DNA of 20,077 nt, taken from assembly GCA_024680445.1 (NCBI GenBank), contig JAILCJ010000065.1, positions 1 through 20,077 of the forward strand, given 5' to 3'. Each line of letters starts with the position of its first letter. Positions within the stretch are counted from its first letter, which is position 1. Shown piece by piece: positions 3,707 through 20,077 of this stretch. A program made the position numbers and the translations under genes. The notes below the pieces were generated by a model. It did no database searches and was not told the DNA's origin. It worked only from the letters and a program-made list of their open reading frames with translations. The DNA comes from Campylobacter sp. (lineage in GTDB: Bacteria; Campylobacterota; Campylobacteria; Campylobacterales; Campylobacteraceae).

Positions 3707-4800
3707 TATATTTTTTCTAAGACATAAAGATATTCGTTTACATAAATACTTCTGGTTTTTAGGTTTCTGCTGGCACGAAATGTGTTGTATCTTTGCTCGA
3801 AAAGTTGCAGTTTGCCAAGGTGTTTGAGATTTGCTGCAAAATCTGCCTAACTTATAAAACCTGCGGAGTGAAACGATATAAGCACGATTTTTGCTTTTAA
3901 TTTATTAATCAAGTCAAAAAATGCCTCCCCAGCCTTTGCCTTTTGGTTATAAACCGAGCGATTCCAATCTGTGCTAATGCCTGCAACTTTTGAAATTTTT
4001 TCTGGTTTTTTGTATCTTGCGATAAGGTTTAGCATAAAATAATTTGAACCATAAGGGTGTTGGTTATAAGGCGGATCAAGGTAGATAATATCTAGCTTGT
4101 CAAGCTCGTTAACTAAGCGATTTGCGTCCATGTCATATACCGAATAGGGCACATTGAAATTTGAAAAAACTGGCAAAGGCAGTTTTATCTCGCCCAAAAT
4201 TCGTTTTAAGGCGTTTCGTCCTTCGCCCCCAAATTGTCCGATATTTTGCCTATTTTTGTAAAAACCTTTGAAAACTCCCCCTGTGTTTGCGTGCGTGCTA
4301 GCCTCGTAAAGCAAGGGTGCTATGAAAAATTTTTGCATGTCTGGATGAAGTTTTTTTATCTCTCTCATCACAGAATCTATAAAAATCGCATTTTTTCTCG
4401 TGTAAAACACCCTTTCGTTTGCTTGTATGTCAAGGTCGTCTTTTGGTGCGTAAAGTTCGGTGATAAAACCCGGTTGTAGATCTTGTCTAACTCGTCTTAA
4501 AAACGCTCGAAAAGACGCCTTTAAATGCTCTTTAAACTCTTCATCTGCGTTGTAAAGATAGCAGTCATTTACTATCTTTGAATAAAGTTCTAAATCGTTT
4601 GCAACTATGTAATTTGCGTGTTGTTTTAGGTATCTTGAAACTATGCCAGAGCCTGCAAATAAATCCCCAACGCTAAATTTGTCTTTGTTTAAAGCATCCT
4701 TTGCATAGCTCACGCCTTGCTCGATCAGCCCAAGCAAGGCACGTTTGTTGCCTATGTAGGTTAAAATTTGGTTTTTTAAATAAAGCGGATTCTCGTTCAT
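3706..4800 (-). pseudogene. D12-class (alpha) adenine-N6 DNA methyltransferase interrupted by an in-frame TAG
   Basis: The N-terminal 317 codons (4800 down to 3850) encode an alpha-class adenine methyltransferase: TYIGNKRALL (14-23), SAM-binding DLFAGSGIVSRYLK (46-59) and catalytic DPPYNQHPYGSNYF (242-255). The frame stops at TAG (3849-3847) directly after SFHSAGFIS. In the same frame, 46 further codons run to TAA at 3706-3708. They encode the expected C-terminus of this subfamily, with GKLQLFEQRYNTFRASRNL and NEYLYVLEKI. The intact protein would have been 364 residues. No length change is involved, so this is a nonsense mutation (relatives commonly have Tyr after GFIS) or a base-calling error. 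The start ATG overlaps the serC stop by one base (TGATG), indicating coupling. No restriction enzyme gene is adjacent. The truncated product keeps the catalytic motifs but lacks the conserved tail. Confidence 0.85.
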
Positions 4801-5887: not shown

Positions 5888-7054
5888 CTATTTTGTTATT
5901 ACGGCGTTTCTTATGCCGTCTTGTTTTATAATGCTTATTTCATCGCCGATTTTTAGCTCCATAAGATCGGCGTTTTTGCCGTTTATGTGAATTTGAGCCA
6001 AATCCTTGGTGCTTTCAAAAAATTTCGCCTTTGCGTCAAAGGCAATTTGCAATCTATCTAAATGCAATTTTAATTTTGTAAATTTGTTTTTTAAAGCTAT
6101 ATCTAATCTTTCGCCAAGCACCTTAGTTTCGTTTACAACAAGGTCTATTCTAGCCTTTAAAGCCATGGGTGAAAATTTGGATCCAAGCATGTTTAATTTG
6201 TATGATAAAGTTTCGATTTTTTGCTTGATGTTTTTATCAAATTTGTCATCAAGTTCATCGAGATATTGAAAAATGGCGTTTTCATCTGGTAAAAGTTCTG
6301 CCATGGCAGCGCTTGGTGTTGGAGCTCGATAATCAGCCACAAAATCGCTTATAACATAGTCTATCTCGTGTCCGATAGCACTGATAATAGGGGTTTTACA
6401 AGCAAAAATTTGCCTAGCCAAATTTTCATCATTAAAGCACCACAGATCCTCTCTGCTTCCGCCTCCACGTGCCAAAACTATCACATCTACGCCAAAATTA
6501 TCGGCTTTTTGCAAGGCATTGATGAGAGAAGCAGGGGCGTTGGCACCTTGTGTTAAAGCGTCAAAGATAAAAATTTTACTTGCCTTCCAGCGACTTTGAG
6601 TAATGCGAAGCATATCTTGCAAGGCAGCCGAAGTTGCCGAAGTTACAAGGGCTATGCGTTTGGCAAAAAGCGGTAGTTGTTTTTTGTAAGAAGGTTCAAA
6701 AAGCCCTTCTTTGGCTAGTTTTTCTTTGAGTTGTTTAAATGCGACTTCGAGTTCGCCTTCACCGCTGACATTAAGAGTTTGGGCTATGAGTTGATAGCTA
6801 CCAGATGGGCCATATATCGAAATTTTGCCGTAAATTACGACGCTCATGCCGTCTTTTACTTCAAAGCGAAGTTTGGTATTATTTAAGCGGTACATAACCG
6901 TACTTATAGCTGATTTTTCATCTTTTAACGTAAAATACCAGTGCCCCGAACCATGTTTTGTAAGGCGTGAAATTTCGCCACTAACTTCGACAAAACCGAT
7001 ATTTGCTTCTAGCAAAGCCTTTGCTTTTTCATTTAAATCGCTAACACTTAGCAT
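5888..7054 (-). CDS. xseA: Exodeoxyribonuclease VII large subunit XseA
   Basis: XseA is the catalytic subunit of exonuclease VII, which degrades single-stranded DNA in repair and recombination. An N-terminal OB-fold (about 1-100, with [20 protein letters not shown]) is followed by the nuclease core: [19 protein letters not shown] (133-151), [12 protein letters not shown] (194-205), SAIGHEIDY (225-233) and [15 protein letters not shown] (241-255). The C-terminal third is helical. At 388 residues it is slightly shorter than the E. coli protein. No xseB is visible in the window, so the small subunit must be encoded elsewhere. The start lies inside the last codons of the upstream methyltransferase (14-base overlap), with AAGGA about five bases before the ATG. 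Confidence 0.95.
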
Positions 7055-8153
7055 ATTTATCCTTGCGGTATTTTTCTCTTATCAAATTTATGCTGATTTT
7101 TTTGCCCTCTCTTAGCACTTGCCAGTATTCAAAGCCGTTTAATCTGCTAGATTTTGCCTCTTTAAAAATGGCGGCAAGGCTGTGCATATCGTAGTTTTTG
7201 TTTTGAAAATTTAATTTGCCGTTTTTGTCTAAAATAGCGAATTTATCGCTGTTTTTAAGATAAAATTTTTCATCGTTTTTAAAATACCCAGCCTCTATCA
7301 TTTCGCCCATGCTTACCTTTGGTGGCTTTTCATCAAATTTGGCTTTACATATATCGTCATCATCAAATTTGATATTTTCAAGCCTTTTTTTAGCAAATTT
7401 GATATATTTTTCGTCTTTTTCTATCATTATAAAATTTCGTCCAAGTTTTTTTGCCGCCGCCGCTGTTGTCATGGTTCCGCCAAAAGGATCAAGCACGGTG
7501 TCGCCGAGTTTTGAGCTAATGGCTATGATACGATAAAGCAAGGCTAGGGGTTTTTGCGTGGAGTGAAGTTTCGCTCCGTTTTCATCTTTTAAACGTTCGT
7601 TTCCGCTGCAAAGCGTAAATTTCCAAACCGAACCTAACTGTTTTCTTTCGCCCTTATCGAAATTTAAGACATTTTCTTTGTTTAACTCTTTTGCGGTTTT
7701 GTAGTTAAATGTAAATTTTGCTTTTTTATCTTTGCACGCCCAAATAAGCGTTTCGTGCGAATTATTTAGCCTTGTTCCCATAAAATTTGGCGTTGGATTG
7801 CTTTTTTGCCAAATGACATCATTTATAAACCAAAATCCAAGCTCTTGCATAAGTCCGCCAAGGCTATAAATGCACTGCATACCGCCGATGAGCCAAAATG
7901 AGCCGTTTGGCTTTAAAACTCTCTTGCACTCGCTAAGCCACTCACGGCTAAATTTGATATATTCATCATCGTTTTTAAAATCTCTGTCCCACTCATCATC
8001 ACAGCCGTCAAATTCGCCACCTTCTGGACGATTTAAAACTCCGTCTACTCGCATCCAGTATGGTGGATCGGCAAAAATTAGATCTATGCTATCATCTGGC
8101 AATCTTTTTAAAATTTCGCGACAATCGCCCTTTAAAATTTGATTTTTTAGCAT
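7041..8153 (-). CDS. Beta-class DNA methyltransferase, CcrM/HinfI-like, with C-terminal RAMA-type domain
   Basis: The motif order is that of beta-class amino-methyltransferases: the catalytic motif IADPPYWMR-like FADPPYWMR (27-35) comes first, then HSTQKPLALL (197-206) and the SAM motif LDPFGGTMTTAAAAKKLGR (221-239). The C-terminal 90 residues (about 280-366) resemble the extra domain of CcrM and HinfI methyltransferases, including HSLAAIFKEAKSSRLNGFEY (324-343) and a final DNA-contact-like helix. By that resemblance the target could be GANTC with adenine-N6 methylation, but this is inference. Motif I has Met where relatives usually have the second Gly of GTGTT or GSGTT. No restriction partner is adjacent, so it looks like an orphan regulator or remnant. 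No clear ribosome binding site precedes the ATG. The gene lies between ubiE and xseA, which adjoin in C. jejuni. Confidence 0.85.
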   Translation of the reverse strand: MLKNQILKGDCREILKRLPDDSIDLIFADPPYWMRVDGVLNRPEGGEFDGCDDEWDRDFKNDDEYIKFSREWLSECKRVLKPNGSFWLIGGMQCIYSLGGLMQELGFWFINDVIWQKSNPTPNFMGTRLNNSHETLIWACKDKKAKFTFNYKTAKELNKENVLNFDKGERKQLGSVWKFTLCSGNERLKDENGAKLHSTQKPLALLYRIIAISSKLGDTVLDPFGGTMTTAAAAKKLGRNFIMIEKDEKYIKFAKKRLENIKFDDDDICKAKFDEKPPKVSMGEMIEAGYFKNDEKFYLKNSDKFAILDKNGKLNFQNKNYDMHSLAAIFKEAKSSRLNGFEYWQVLREGKKISINLIREKYRKDKYAKC

Positions 8154-17284: not shown

Positions 17285-18363
17285 GATAAATCTCCATTAA
17301 GATAGCTTCCTAACCATGTGATTTCTATACCGCAATTTTTCGCCAAATCAATGGCGTTTTGCACCTTTTCATCGTCTATATGCCCTTCAAAATCTATATA
17401 AAACGCACTTCTAAATTCTCGCTGTTTTATAGGACGGCTGTCGAGTTTTGTCAAATTTATATTTTCATTTTTAAAAATTTGAAGCAAATTTGCAAGTCCG
17501 CCCGGGCGGTGGTCGGTTTTGGCGACTACCGAAGTTTTGGCATTTGAAGTTTTAGTGGTTTTAAAATCGCTAAGTATGAAAAATCTCGTGCGATTTGCCA
17601 TATTGTCTTCTATGGTTTCGTAAAGTATCGGCACATTGTAAAGTTTGGCGGCTATTTTTGAGCAAATAGCGGCACTTTGGCTTTGTTGCGATGCCATAAA
17701 AGCAGCTTGGGCGGTGGATTTTGTTGGGATAAATTCTATATTGCTAAGCATGTGATTTTCTAAGAATTTTCGGCATTGATTGTAACCTTGTGGGTGAGAG
17801 TAAATAACCTTAATATCTTCGAGTTTTTCGCTTATGCTAACGAAACTATGGTGTATGTCAAGGTAAAGTTCGGCGACTATTTTTATGCCTTCAAATCTTG
17901 CAAGACAATCAAGCGTTGCTCCAACGGCACCTTCTGTGTTGTTTTCTATCGGCACGACACCGTATTTTGCCTCTTTTTGAGCTAGTTTTGTAAATACCGC
18001 CTCTATCGTTGCAAGCGGCAAATATTCGCTAACTGCACCGAATCTATCTCTGGCGGCTTGATGAGTATAGGTGCCTTCTGGTCCAAGATAAGCGACTTTT
18101 TGGGGCATTTCAAGGTTTCTGCTGGCTGCAAAAACTTCAAAATATATCGCTTCTATCGCACCCTTGTTAAGCAAGCCCCCACGAGCGTTTTGTTCTAGCC
18201 TTTCTATGATGGCTCTTTCTCGTTCGGGACGATATATCGCCGTTCCAGCGTTTTGTTTTAATTCGCCTATTTTTTTGACAAATTCCATACGCTCATTTAG
18301 TTTATTTAAAATTTCGTCGTCGATTCTATCGATATTTTGGCGAAGTTCATTTATCTCTTGCAT
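17281..18363 (-). CDS. pheA: Bifunctional chorismate mutase/prephenate dehydratase PheA
   Basis: PheA converts chorismate to prephenate and then to phenylpyruvate. Residues 1-85 form an AroQ-type chorismate mutase ([19 protein letters not shown]). The dehydratase occupies about 88-270 ([16 protein letters not shown], 89-104; the catalytic NRTRFFIL). A C-terminal ACT domain (about 275-355) contains the phenylalanine-binding GGLANLL and DSRP motifs, so feedback inhibition by phenylalanine is expected. Its length, 360 residues, is typical. The start overlaps the lysA stop by one base (TAATG) and the stop overlaps hisC, marking an operon. Confidence 0.97.
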
Positions 18364-19562
18364 TATAAAAAATCCTTTTCATGGCTAATGAGATCATCAA
18401 AACTTTCTCTTTTTCGTATAAGTCTATCCTTGCCGTTTTCTAGTGCGACTTCGGCGGCACGAGCCCTGCTGTTGTAGTTGCTACTCATGCTAAATCCATA
18501 CGCTCCCGCACTTTTTATGACTAACAAATCTCCATTTTTGCATGGTGGTAAATTTACATTTTTGCCGAAAAAATCGCCACTTTCACAGATAGGTCCAACT
18601 ATATCACAAAGGCTGGTTTCGCCTTCTTGGTTAAAGCTTGAAATTTCATGATAGGCTTCATAAAGGCTAGGGCGGATAAGGTCGTTCATACCGCCATCGA
18701 CTATCACAAAACGTTTGTTTTTGTTAAATTTTTCATATAAAACGCTAGTTAGCAAAACTCCGCTGTTGCCGACTATGAATCTGCCCGGTTCGCAAACTAT
18801 GCTTACATCAAGTCCGCTAAGTTCGCCCAAAATGCCTTGTGCGTAGTCGTATAGGTCTATCTCGGTTTCGTTTTCGTATTTTATGCCTATGCCGCCGCCA
18901 ACATCGAAAAATTTGATGTCTATTTCTAAGGCTTTTAACTCTTTGACTAATTTCGCAACTATGCCGGCTGCCTCGATGATAGGAGCGTGATCGCTAAGTT
19001 GCGAGCCTATGTGAAAATGCACGCCTATTGGCTCTAAAAATTCGGAATTTTTAGCCTTTATATACATTTGTTTGGCTGATTGTATATCAACGCCAAATTT
19101 GTTTTCGTTTAGTCCAGTTGAGATGTAGGGGTGGGTTTTGGCATCAACATTTGGATTTACTCTTATGCTAATTCTTGCTTTTTTGCCAAGACTTTGTGCT
19201 ATTTTTTCAAGAGCGTCCATTTCGGCTGGACTTTCAAGATTTATCATCAAAATATCGTTTTTTAGGGCTTGAGAAAGTTCGTCATCGCTTTTGCCAACTC
19301 CGCTAAAAATGATCTGATAGCTTTTTGCACCGGCTATAAGAGCACGTTTGACCTCGCCTATGCTTACGCAGTCAAATCCAGCTCCAAGTTGAGCCAAAAG
19401 TTTTAAAATGCTTAAATTTGAGTTTGCCTTGACGGCGTAACAAAGTAAAGATTTTCTGCCTGCAAATGCGTTTTTTAGGCTGATATAACGATTTTTAATG
19501 TAGTCAAAATCATAAACATAAAGTGGAGTTTGGTATCTTTTTGCAAGTTCTTGATAATTCAT
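18363..19562 (-). CDS. lysA: Diaminopimelate decarboxylase LysA
   Basis: LysA decarboxylates meso-diaminopimelate to L-lysine. The fold-type III PLP motifs are clear: CYAVKANSN (41-49, Schiff-base Lys45), HFHIGSQ (182-188), DVGGGIG (220-226), CEPGRF (257-262) and the active-site CESGD (326-330). I place the start at ATG 19562 (399 residues), because MNYQELAKRYQTPLYVYD is the usual N-terminus and AAGGGG lies nine bases upstream. An in-frame extension to 19679 adds 39 hydrophobic residues without family resemblance and would run through the candidate promoter. It is the first gene of the minus-strand block and lies downstream of the repeat array. Confidence 0.95.
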   Translation of the reverse strand: MNYQELAKRYQTPLYVYDFDYIKNRYISLKNAFAGRKSLLCYAVKANSNLSILKLLAQLGAGFDCVSIGEVKRALIAGAKSYQIIFSGVGKSDDELSQALKNDILMINLESPAEMDALEKIAQSLGKKARISIRVNPNVDAKTHPYISTGLNENKFGVDIQSAKQMYIKAKNSEFLEPIGVHFHIGSQLSDHAPIIEAAGIVAKLVKELKALEIDIKFFDVGGGIGIKYENETEIDLYDYAQGILGELSGLDVSIVCEPGRFIVGNSGVLLTSVLYEKFNKNKRFVIVDGGMNDLIRPSLYEAYHEISSFNQEGETSLCDIVGPICESGDFFGKNVNLPPCKNGDLLVIKSAGAYGFSMSSNYNSRARAAEVALENGKDRLIRKRESFDDLISHEKDFL

Positions 19563-19590
19563 AAAATTTTGCCCCTTAAAATTCGTTAAT

Positions 19591-19596
19591 TTTATA
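19591..19596 (-). promoter_or_regulatory. Candidate -10 box for the lysA operon
   Basis: TATAAA on the minus strand lies 29 bases upstream of the lysA ATG at 19562, preceded by a T-rich run and followed by TTAAGGGG as ribosome binding site. It would drive lysA-pheA-hisC-fliF-fliG-fliH-dxs. The repeat array begins about 160 bp further upstream, close enough to influence this promoter if it binds protein or bends. Confidence 0.45.
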
Positions 19597-19780
19597 AAAA
19601 TAATGCCAAAATTTGGCTTAATAATGCCGTCTAAAAGACAAAGTGAGTAAAATAAAAGCAAATTTTTAGTTTCAAGCAAGCAAAATCGTAAATTTTAACT
19701 CAAAATCGCAAGAATTTTGATACTCAAAGCTAAAATAATTTTATCAAGGCAGATATCAAATTTGTTTTTTAGTTTTTTGC

Positions 19781-19796
19781 CACCCTGTGGATTTTT
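19781..19796. repeat. Left arm of a perfect 16-bp inverted pair
   Basis: CACCCTGTGGATTTTT is the exact reverse complement of 19916-19931. It is the most GC-rich point of the region and accounts for the irregular 48-bp step between the first two array copies. Its complement contains AAATCCACA, which matches seven of nine positions of the E. coli DnaA box TTATCCACA. Confidence 0.85.
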
Positions 19797-19915
19797 CAGA
19801 GCATCAAATTTGCTTTTGAAAATATCAAATTTAGCTTTGAAATTATCAAATTTGATTTTATAGGGTGAGAAAACTTATCAAATTTGACAGCGAAATTATC
19901 AAATTTGATAAAGAA

Positions 19916-19931
19916 AAAAATCCACAGGGTG
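19916..19931. repeat. Right arm of the 16-bp inverted pair
   Basis: AAAAATCCACAGGGTG is the exact reverse complement of 19781-19796; the two arms are separated by 119 bp that hold array copies 2 to 6. It fills the 42-bp step between copies 6 and 7. A shorter related word, AGGGTGAGAAAA, occurs at 19862-19873 in the 32-bp step, so each enlarged step of this part of the array carries an AGGGTG element. Confidence 0.85.
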
Positions 19932-20077
19932 ACGAAAATATCAAATTTGGCTTTTAAATTATCAAATTTGATTTTTAAATTTTAAAGAATTGTCAAATTT
20001 GCTTTTGAAATTATCAAATTTGACACTGAAATTATCAAATTTGGTTTAGAAATTATCAAATTTAGCTTTAAAATGCG

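Follow-up and report, generated by a model that had tools for sequence, protein, structure and literature searches.

The array upstream of lysA

What is a dense array of short, regularly spaced words doing upstream of lysA in a Campylobacter genome? The window analysed here is the whole of contig C25 (20,077 bp), from a 1.72-Mb draft genome in 226 contigs, and it ends in such an array, which the original prediction had read as a track for cooperative protein binding along one face of the DNA or as a source of static curvature. The twelve copies of the 8-bp word TCAAATTT that had been counted in about 310 bp were all found, within 19756..20063, starting at 19756, 19804, 19825, 19846, 19878, 19899, 19941, 19962, 19993, 20014, 20035 and 20056. 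The successive spacings (48, 21, 21, 32, 21, 42, 21, 31, 21, 21 and 21 bp) bear out the seven 21-bp steps and the longer ones of 32, 42 and 31 bp that had been described, after a first step of 48 bp. The locus is laid out as follows.

18363..19562, minus strand: lysA, diaminopimelate decarboxylase (TIGR01048, 539.8 bits, cut-off 297.9)
19605..19617, minus strand: terminator-like hairpin GCCAAATTTTGGC, adjoining lysA
19756..20063, continuing to the contig end at 20077, plus strand: array of 12 TCAAATTT words, 5 being full TCAAATTTGA
19756..19803, plus strand: second module, 48 bp, with core GCCACCCTGTGGATTTTT at 19779-19796, which is one of 89 genome-wide core matches
19804..19845, plus strand: two 21-bp units
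19878..19898, plus strand: single 21-bp unit
19899..19940, minus strand: second module in the opposite orientation, 42 bp, with core at 19916-19933
19941..19961, plus strand: single 21-bp unit
19993..20063, plus strand: three 21-bp units plus a final word

The second module is 42-48 bp long and lies between words, one copy in each orientation in the window. Its core, GCYACYCTGTGGATTTTT, accounts for the 89 genome-wide matches at up to 2 mismatches (control, 0), and in the fetched DNA of other genomes the module was matched 3 times in 1.3 Mb. Tandem Repeats Finder detected a 115-bp higher-order repeat spanning 19803-20074. As the array reaches the contig end, its right part is missing. A scan of the whole window against Rfam produced 0 matches at the gathering score.

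Dozens of such clusters exist in this genome, the window array among them. With the paired pattern TCAAATTT-N13-TCAAATTT the genome gives 65 matches in forward and 52 in reverse orientation, against 0 and 0 for the reversed control, so the clustering exceeds chance. A stricter paired pattern matched 38 and 21 times in this genome and 0 or 1 times in each of 47 other genomes of the genus, and the five matches in other genus genomes are one identical sequence. To sample the clusters, an array was defined as at least four words with gaps of up to 90 bp, and the window was combined with 60 further stretches of its own genome, 40 picked for arrays and 20 for having no listed array match (two of these 20 were all N). 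This sample holds 54 arrays, including that of the window, which puts the genome's clusters at 54 or more.

The word is dispersed across genomes and lineages

Copies of the word are also dispersed genome-wide. The full 10-mer TCAAATTTGA occurs 741 times in the genome of the window (reversed control, 1), 2003 times in the 1.4-Mb genome of the uncultured rumen Campylobacter RUG537 (G071, source of locus L010; control, 1) and 386 times in C. showae CC57C. Among 47 other genomes of the genus there are 372-416 copies in five and 6-65 in 42; among 153 genomes of the family, 2003 in one (G357, taken as the same as G071), 372-416 in five, 123 and 132 in two, and 1-79 in 144. A draw of 298 genomes from the order included 268 that do not belong to the family, and these hold 0-34 copies.

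The bases that flank the word are lineage-specific: A-T in the genome of the window, T-A in RUG537 and g-c in showae-like genomes. In a further genome (G075, loci L163-L170) ATTAAATTTA with flanks, likewise centred on AAATTT, is commoner than TCAAATTTGA and ranks among the commonest 10-mers, as if it were that lineage's own dialect. In addition, 25 contigs from IMG/VR (L229-L253) carry a close pair of TCAAATTTGA.

A second sample of RUG537, taken in contig order, contained 248 copies in 148 kb (1.67 per kb), at a density of 7.09 per kb between ORFs and 1.14 within them. Here the words are mostly far apart, with a median distance of 234 bp and a longest word-free step of 2995 bp.

The AAATTT core is almost invariant

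Words within ORFs were compared with synonymous shuffles that preserve both protein and codon use. ORFs in the sample from the window's genome contained 17 words against a shuffle mean of 2.9 (maximum 6 in 20 shuffles), and those of RUG537 contained 63 against a mean of 6.5 (maximum 12); in the second RUG537 sample the tested ORFs held 156 words against 11.4 in the shuffles. Other genomes showed a smaller excess: G075 had 11 against 2.1, and G003 with G019 had 2 against 1.0. Showae-like genomes gave a weak excess (G023, 9 against 1.9; G005, 3 against 1.4; G021, 4 against 1.3). Under the highest-order Markov model AAATTT shows no excess (912 against 903.3), because its own pentamers carry the word, and codon shuffles were used in its place.

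One-base variants of the word fall almost entirely outside the core. For the 12-mer, the sample from the window's genome has 226 exact copies, 226 variants at outer positions and 3 in the core. In 14.2 kb of array DNA from this genome the 10-mer has a single one-base variant at the six core positions and 190 at the four outer ones, although arrays delimited by intact words favour outer variants. The RUG537 samples are free of that bias and gave the same picture for the 12-mer: 1 core and 38 outer variants with 69 exact copies in the first, and 0 core and 94 outer variants with 172 exact copies in the second, against 0.59 and 1.17 expected under an order-2 Markov model. The earlier claim that more than slippage keeps the word is thus upheld, and the even spread of substitutions over the unit that characterizes a neutral minisatellite was not seen in the array DNA.

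The core fits the RAATTY motif

AAATTT is a RAATTY site, and for this motif we take CJSA_0199 and Cj0208 both to be the enzyme CtsM. C. jejuni is described as taking in only DNA that is CtsM-methylated at RAATTY (PMC10046745), and the motif has been assigned to the D12-class enzyme CJSA_0199 (PMC4294202) and, in strain NCTC11168, to Cj0208 (PMC4889913). The window contains a gene of the same class.

3847..4800, frame continuing to 3709, minus strand: D12-class adenine DNA methyltransferase gene (PF02086, 74.2 bits)

This gene is a candidate counterpart of the RAATTY enzyme. Its product is 57-58% identical to the C. coli and C. jejuni proteins, orthologues with 51-71% identity are present in 16 of 17 other genomes, and a candidate exists in the seventeenth, G075. 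D12 matches above the cut-off were obtained in all 18 genomes searched, with specificity known only from C. jejuni. The window frame is interrupted by a stop following codon 317, and the relatives compared (362-386 aa) end 46 codons further on, which places the activity of this copy in doubt. A short D12-like fragment is also present at G000:C140:3-137. A second adenine-type DNA methyltransferase gene lies in the window at 7041-8153 on the minus strand, between xseA-like and ubiE-like ORFs; it matches N6_N4_Mtase and, below the NCBIfam cut-off, is CcrM-like.

In ORFs, each of the 18 family genomes tested (G071 and G075 being assigned there by matching counts) had a ratio of AAATTT to synonymous shuffles of 1.41-3.20, whereas 7 genomes from elsewhere in the order gave 0.61-1.30; the 1.3-kb stretch L181 was left out. 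Against a strict family-wide rule, eight loci labelled as Campylobacteraceae MAGs gave only 1.17. In the same test GAATTC was not enriched, and AAATTC and GAATTT were enriched in many genomes. AAGCTT, often the top palindrome, is likewise more frequent than in synonymous shuffles in many genomes, both within the family and beyond it. Within the iterated word no GAATTT-type cores, which are likewise RAATTY sites, were found, and RAATTY methylation alone is therefore not the whole rule. As for competence genes, a ComEC domain was detected in 10 of 10 genomes, yet also in 10 of 14 controls, E. coli included, and for this reason lends weak support.

An uptake-type word as the preferred explanation

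In all, the word resembles a tag for DNA uptake or methylation and not a helically phased protein track. We tentatively favour the explanation that a highly iterated palindrome, here ATCAAATTTGAT, has expanded locally and in a lineage-specific way to give the array, and that it has quite possibly accumulated as an uptake-type word. AAATTT, probably methylated as a RAATTY site, would be favoured by the Campylobacter natural-transformation machinery; DNA bearing the word would then enter and recombine more often, and the word would accumulate by uptake-driven molecular drive, in the manner of the DUS of Neisseriaceae and the USS of Pasteurellaceae. In gaps that tolerate insertions, duplication and copying may have turned single words into arrays with steps of 21-24 bp, and these arrays may have spread jointly with the second module. 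Set against the uptake reading are the low copy numbers in most genomes of the family, the weak ORF excess in showae-like genomes, the ratio of 1.17 in the MAG loci, the lack of GAATTT-type cores, the in-frame stop in this genome's methyltransferase gene and the missing 3'-end bias of the RUG537 words.

To our knowledge, Pasteurellaceae and Neisseriaceae are the only families with uptake words. Such words have been described for both families (PMC7811141): the USS of H. influenzae also occurs in close pairs, and modelling of USS shows that molecular drive can work without benefit. Like DUS and USS, the Campylobacter word is short, far above expectation, present singly in ORFs and gaps, denser between ORFs and found in a presumably competent lineage, with a density of 1.67 per kb in RUG537. 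Unlike them, the putative uptake word is a palindrome around a methylation site, has lineage-specific flanks and is condensed into arrays in one species. Compared with the CtsM/RAATTY system of C. jejuni, the resemblance lies in the RAATTY site at the core and the orthologous D12 gene in the window; the differences are that the core here is AAATTT alone and not GAATTY, that the D12 gene of this genome has an in-frame stop, and that the described system has no iterated word of 10-12 bp.

Campylobacter might possess DNA uptake sequences of a third and independent type: an iterated palindrome built on a methylated AAATTT, its flanks differing between lineages, with sequence and mark jointly identifying own DNA and with arrays in one species; we advance this as a conjecture that is still short of probable. 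If true, sequence-based and methylation-based DNA choice would be joined in one system; for C. jejuni, the published account is of reliance on methylation of a motif that is short and common (PMC10046745). An iterated palindrome around RAATTY could also account for the excess of AAATTT in Campylobacter ORFs, and it provides a direct way to ask whether uptake bias is enough by itself to fill a genome with words. Searches of an open-access library turned up no report of such a Campylobacter word in titles and the openings of abstracts.

The main rival is maintenance without uptake, in which the word would be made and kept by methylation-linked repair or recombination at the site of an orphan methyltransferase. 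Such a process has been proposed for HIP1 (GCGATCGC) of cyanobacteria, an iterated palindrome with alternative words per lineage and an orphan methyltransferase site inside, whose deviations shun the methylated centre and prefer the ends (PMC4390886). The HIP paper mentions neither Campylobacter nor AAATTT. The Campylobacter word shares with HIP1 and the alternate HIPs its high iteration, palindromy, lineage-specific alternatives and one-base variants that avoid the central positions, and a D12 methyltransferase is present in all 18 genomes searched; the word differs in sequence and phylum, in being A+T-rich, in forming arrays, and in having as its inner motif the one needed for DNA uptake in a relative. 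The densities between and within ORFs (7.09 against 1.14 per kb) fit function-limited uptake words at least equally well, and a RAATTY enzyme would mark GAATTC and GAATTT too, neither of which was found at the core. We consider maintenance of this kind on its own rather unlikely. The pattern is equally reminiscent of HIP1; uptake bias and HIP1-like maintenance are compatible, and sequence alone cannot tell them apart.

Arrays behind genes and the lysA locus

Several properties of the arrays would also suit an ordinary dispersed intergenic repeat or minisatellite, produced by copying and slippage around a functionless word. Spacers in 21- and 22-bp units have an identity of 0.74 within arrays and 0.65 between arrays, against 0.49 for shuffled letters, which indicates that the arrays share descent, and they share the second module as well. 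The arrays break the assembly at contig ends: in 17 contigs picked without array matches, 4 of 34 ends have at least 3 words within their final 300 bases.

The clusters of this genome tend to sit behind gene 3' ends. Using mechanically called ORFs and an array-rich sample, arrays were found facing a 3' end in 50 cases and a 5' end in 16 (one-sided binomial, 1.7e-5), predicted ORFs enclose 3 of the 54 arrays, and words are present at 11.9 per kb in convergent gaps, 7.6 in tandem gaps and 2.05 in divergent gaps. This filling of 3'-end gaps and rarity in divergent ones would be expected of an ordinary repeat. The words of RUG537 show no 3'-end bias (10.7 per kb in convergent, 9.8 in divergent and 6.1 in tandem gaps), so the bias of the arrays may reflect no more than a tolerance of insertions behind genes. 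Separately, sequence L118 has a run of 6 words at 269-391, with steps of 36, 18, 18, 18 and 18 bp, within a long predicted ORF, and some runs of words are accordingly coding repeats. A coding origin of the array was set aside, the frame being broken by steps of 22, 23 and 45-46 bp.

A functionless repeat, however, should decay evenly, which is at odds with 1 core variant against 190 in the flanks, and RUG537 carries single words in ORFs above codon expectation; this alternative is already disfavoured, and we regard it as improbable. REP and BIME elements are dispersed 3'-end repeats. The arrays resemble them in having palindromic units behind genes in a composite with a second module, and differ in that the Campylobacter word is also found singly in ORFs and has a core that hardly varies.

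The position upstream of lysA seems incidental. At eight Campylobacter loci (L009-L013, L037, L039 and L040) an ORF of 353-377 codons is followed by lysA at 55-57 bp, and the gap holds no TCAAATTTGA, the site being without an array; the 13 bases of GCCAAATTTTGGC come directly after the upstream ORF in five of the eight, four of these being C. concisus. Eight other loci labelled Campylobacteraceae have a gap of 81-503 bp before lysA, again with no TCAAATTTGA, and their upstream ORF is not always the same. The upstream ORF of L010 belongs to the LptF/LptG family, and C141:202-1245 is what matches it best in the genome of the window (45% identity). C141 carries, within its first 154 bases, an array much like the 115-bp unit of the window, and the 3' end of the LptF/LptG-type gene faces it. 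We infer that C25 and C141 are neighbours, with their genes separated by an array of at least 0.4 kb whose middle is unassembled. The relatives' lysA thus follows an LptF/LptG-type gene, and the counterpart in this genome ends at an array-bearing contig end, which is why the location appears incidental.

Spacing and curvature

The tight phase originally reported for the window array is real: from copy 2 onward the resultant at 10.5 bp is 0.99 (0.84 with copy 1 included), and the mean cosine of its 11 spacings at 10.5 bp is 0.82. As a selected property, however, helical phasing found no support in the other arrays. The remaining 53 arrays have 406 spacings, of which 152 are 21 or 22 bp, with further peaks at 32-33 and 45-46 bp; for the spacings of at least 26 bp (n=144) a period of 10.5 bp gives a mean cosine of 0.00, and one of 11.3 bp gives 0.45. 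A resultant above 0.8 was reached by the window array and four others of the 54; averaged over all arrays the resultant is 0.39, where uniform random spacings give 0.31.

Measured as a simple A-tract vector sum, and not with a calibrated model, the alignment of A-tracts in the window exceeds that of letter shuffles (best 120-bp resultant 7.0 against a mean of 3.7, sd 0.9), as the idea of a bent array would have it; over the 41 arrays scored, the same measure varies widely, from 1.9 to 8.3. With this spread and a cosine of 0.00, phasing and curvature were rejected as traits of the array family, and the fine phasing belongs to the window array, in which the units happen to measure 21 bp. A narrow step of 20-24 bp does recur in many arrays of this genome, and putative cooperative binding at a packing of about 22 bp is possible. 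In RUG537 the words are mostly widely separated (median 234 bp). Binding along one face or static curvature as the explanation of the array is consequently very improbable.

Possible signals for transcription

That the repeats serve as a terminator or promoter is scarcely credible: the minus-strand RNA of 19750-20077 folds at -80.9 kcal/mol against -46.1 for shuffles (z -8.07), the arrays lie behind genes and 19400-20077 has 14 promoter-like matches where 3.6 are expected, but stable folding is expected of repeated palindromes in any role, many of the promoter-like matches are created by the 21-bp unit, divergent gaps are lowest in sites (2.05 per kb against 11.9 in convergent gaps) and the terminator-like hairpin before lysA is still present. 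The promoter-like matches in question are repeated sigma-70-like pairs, TTGATA-N17-GATAAT, at 19821-20059 on the minus strand, directed at lysA. In the second module, CCAC-NNN-GTGG could make a small stem ahead of a T run.
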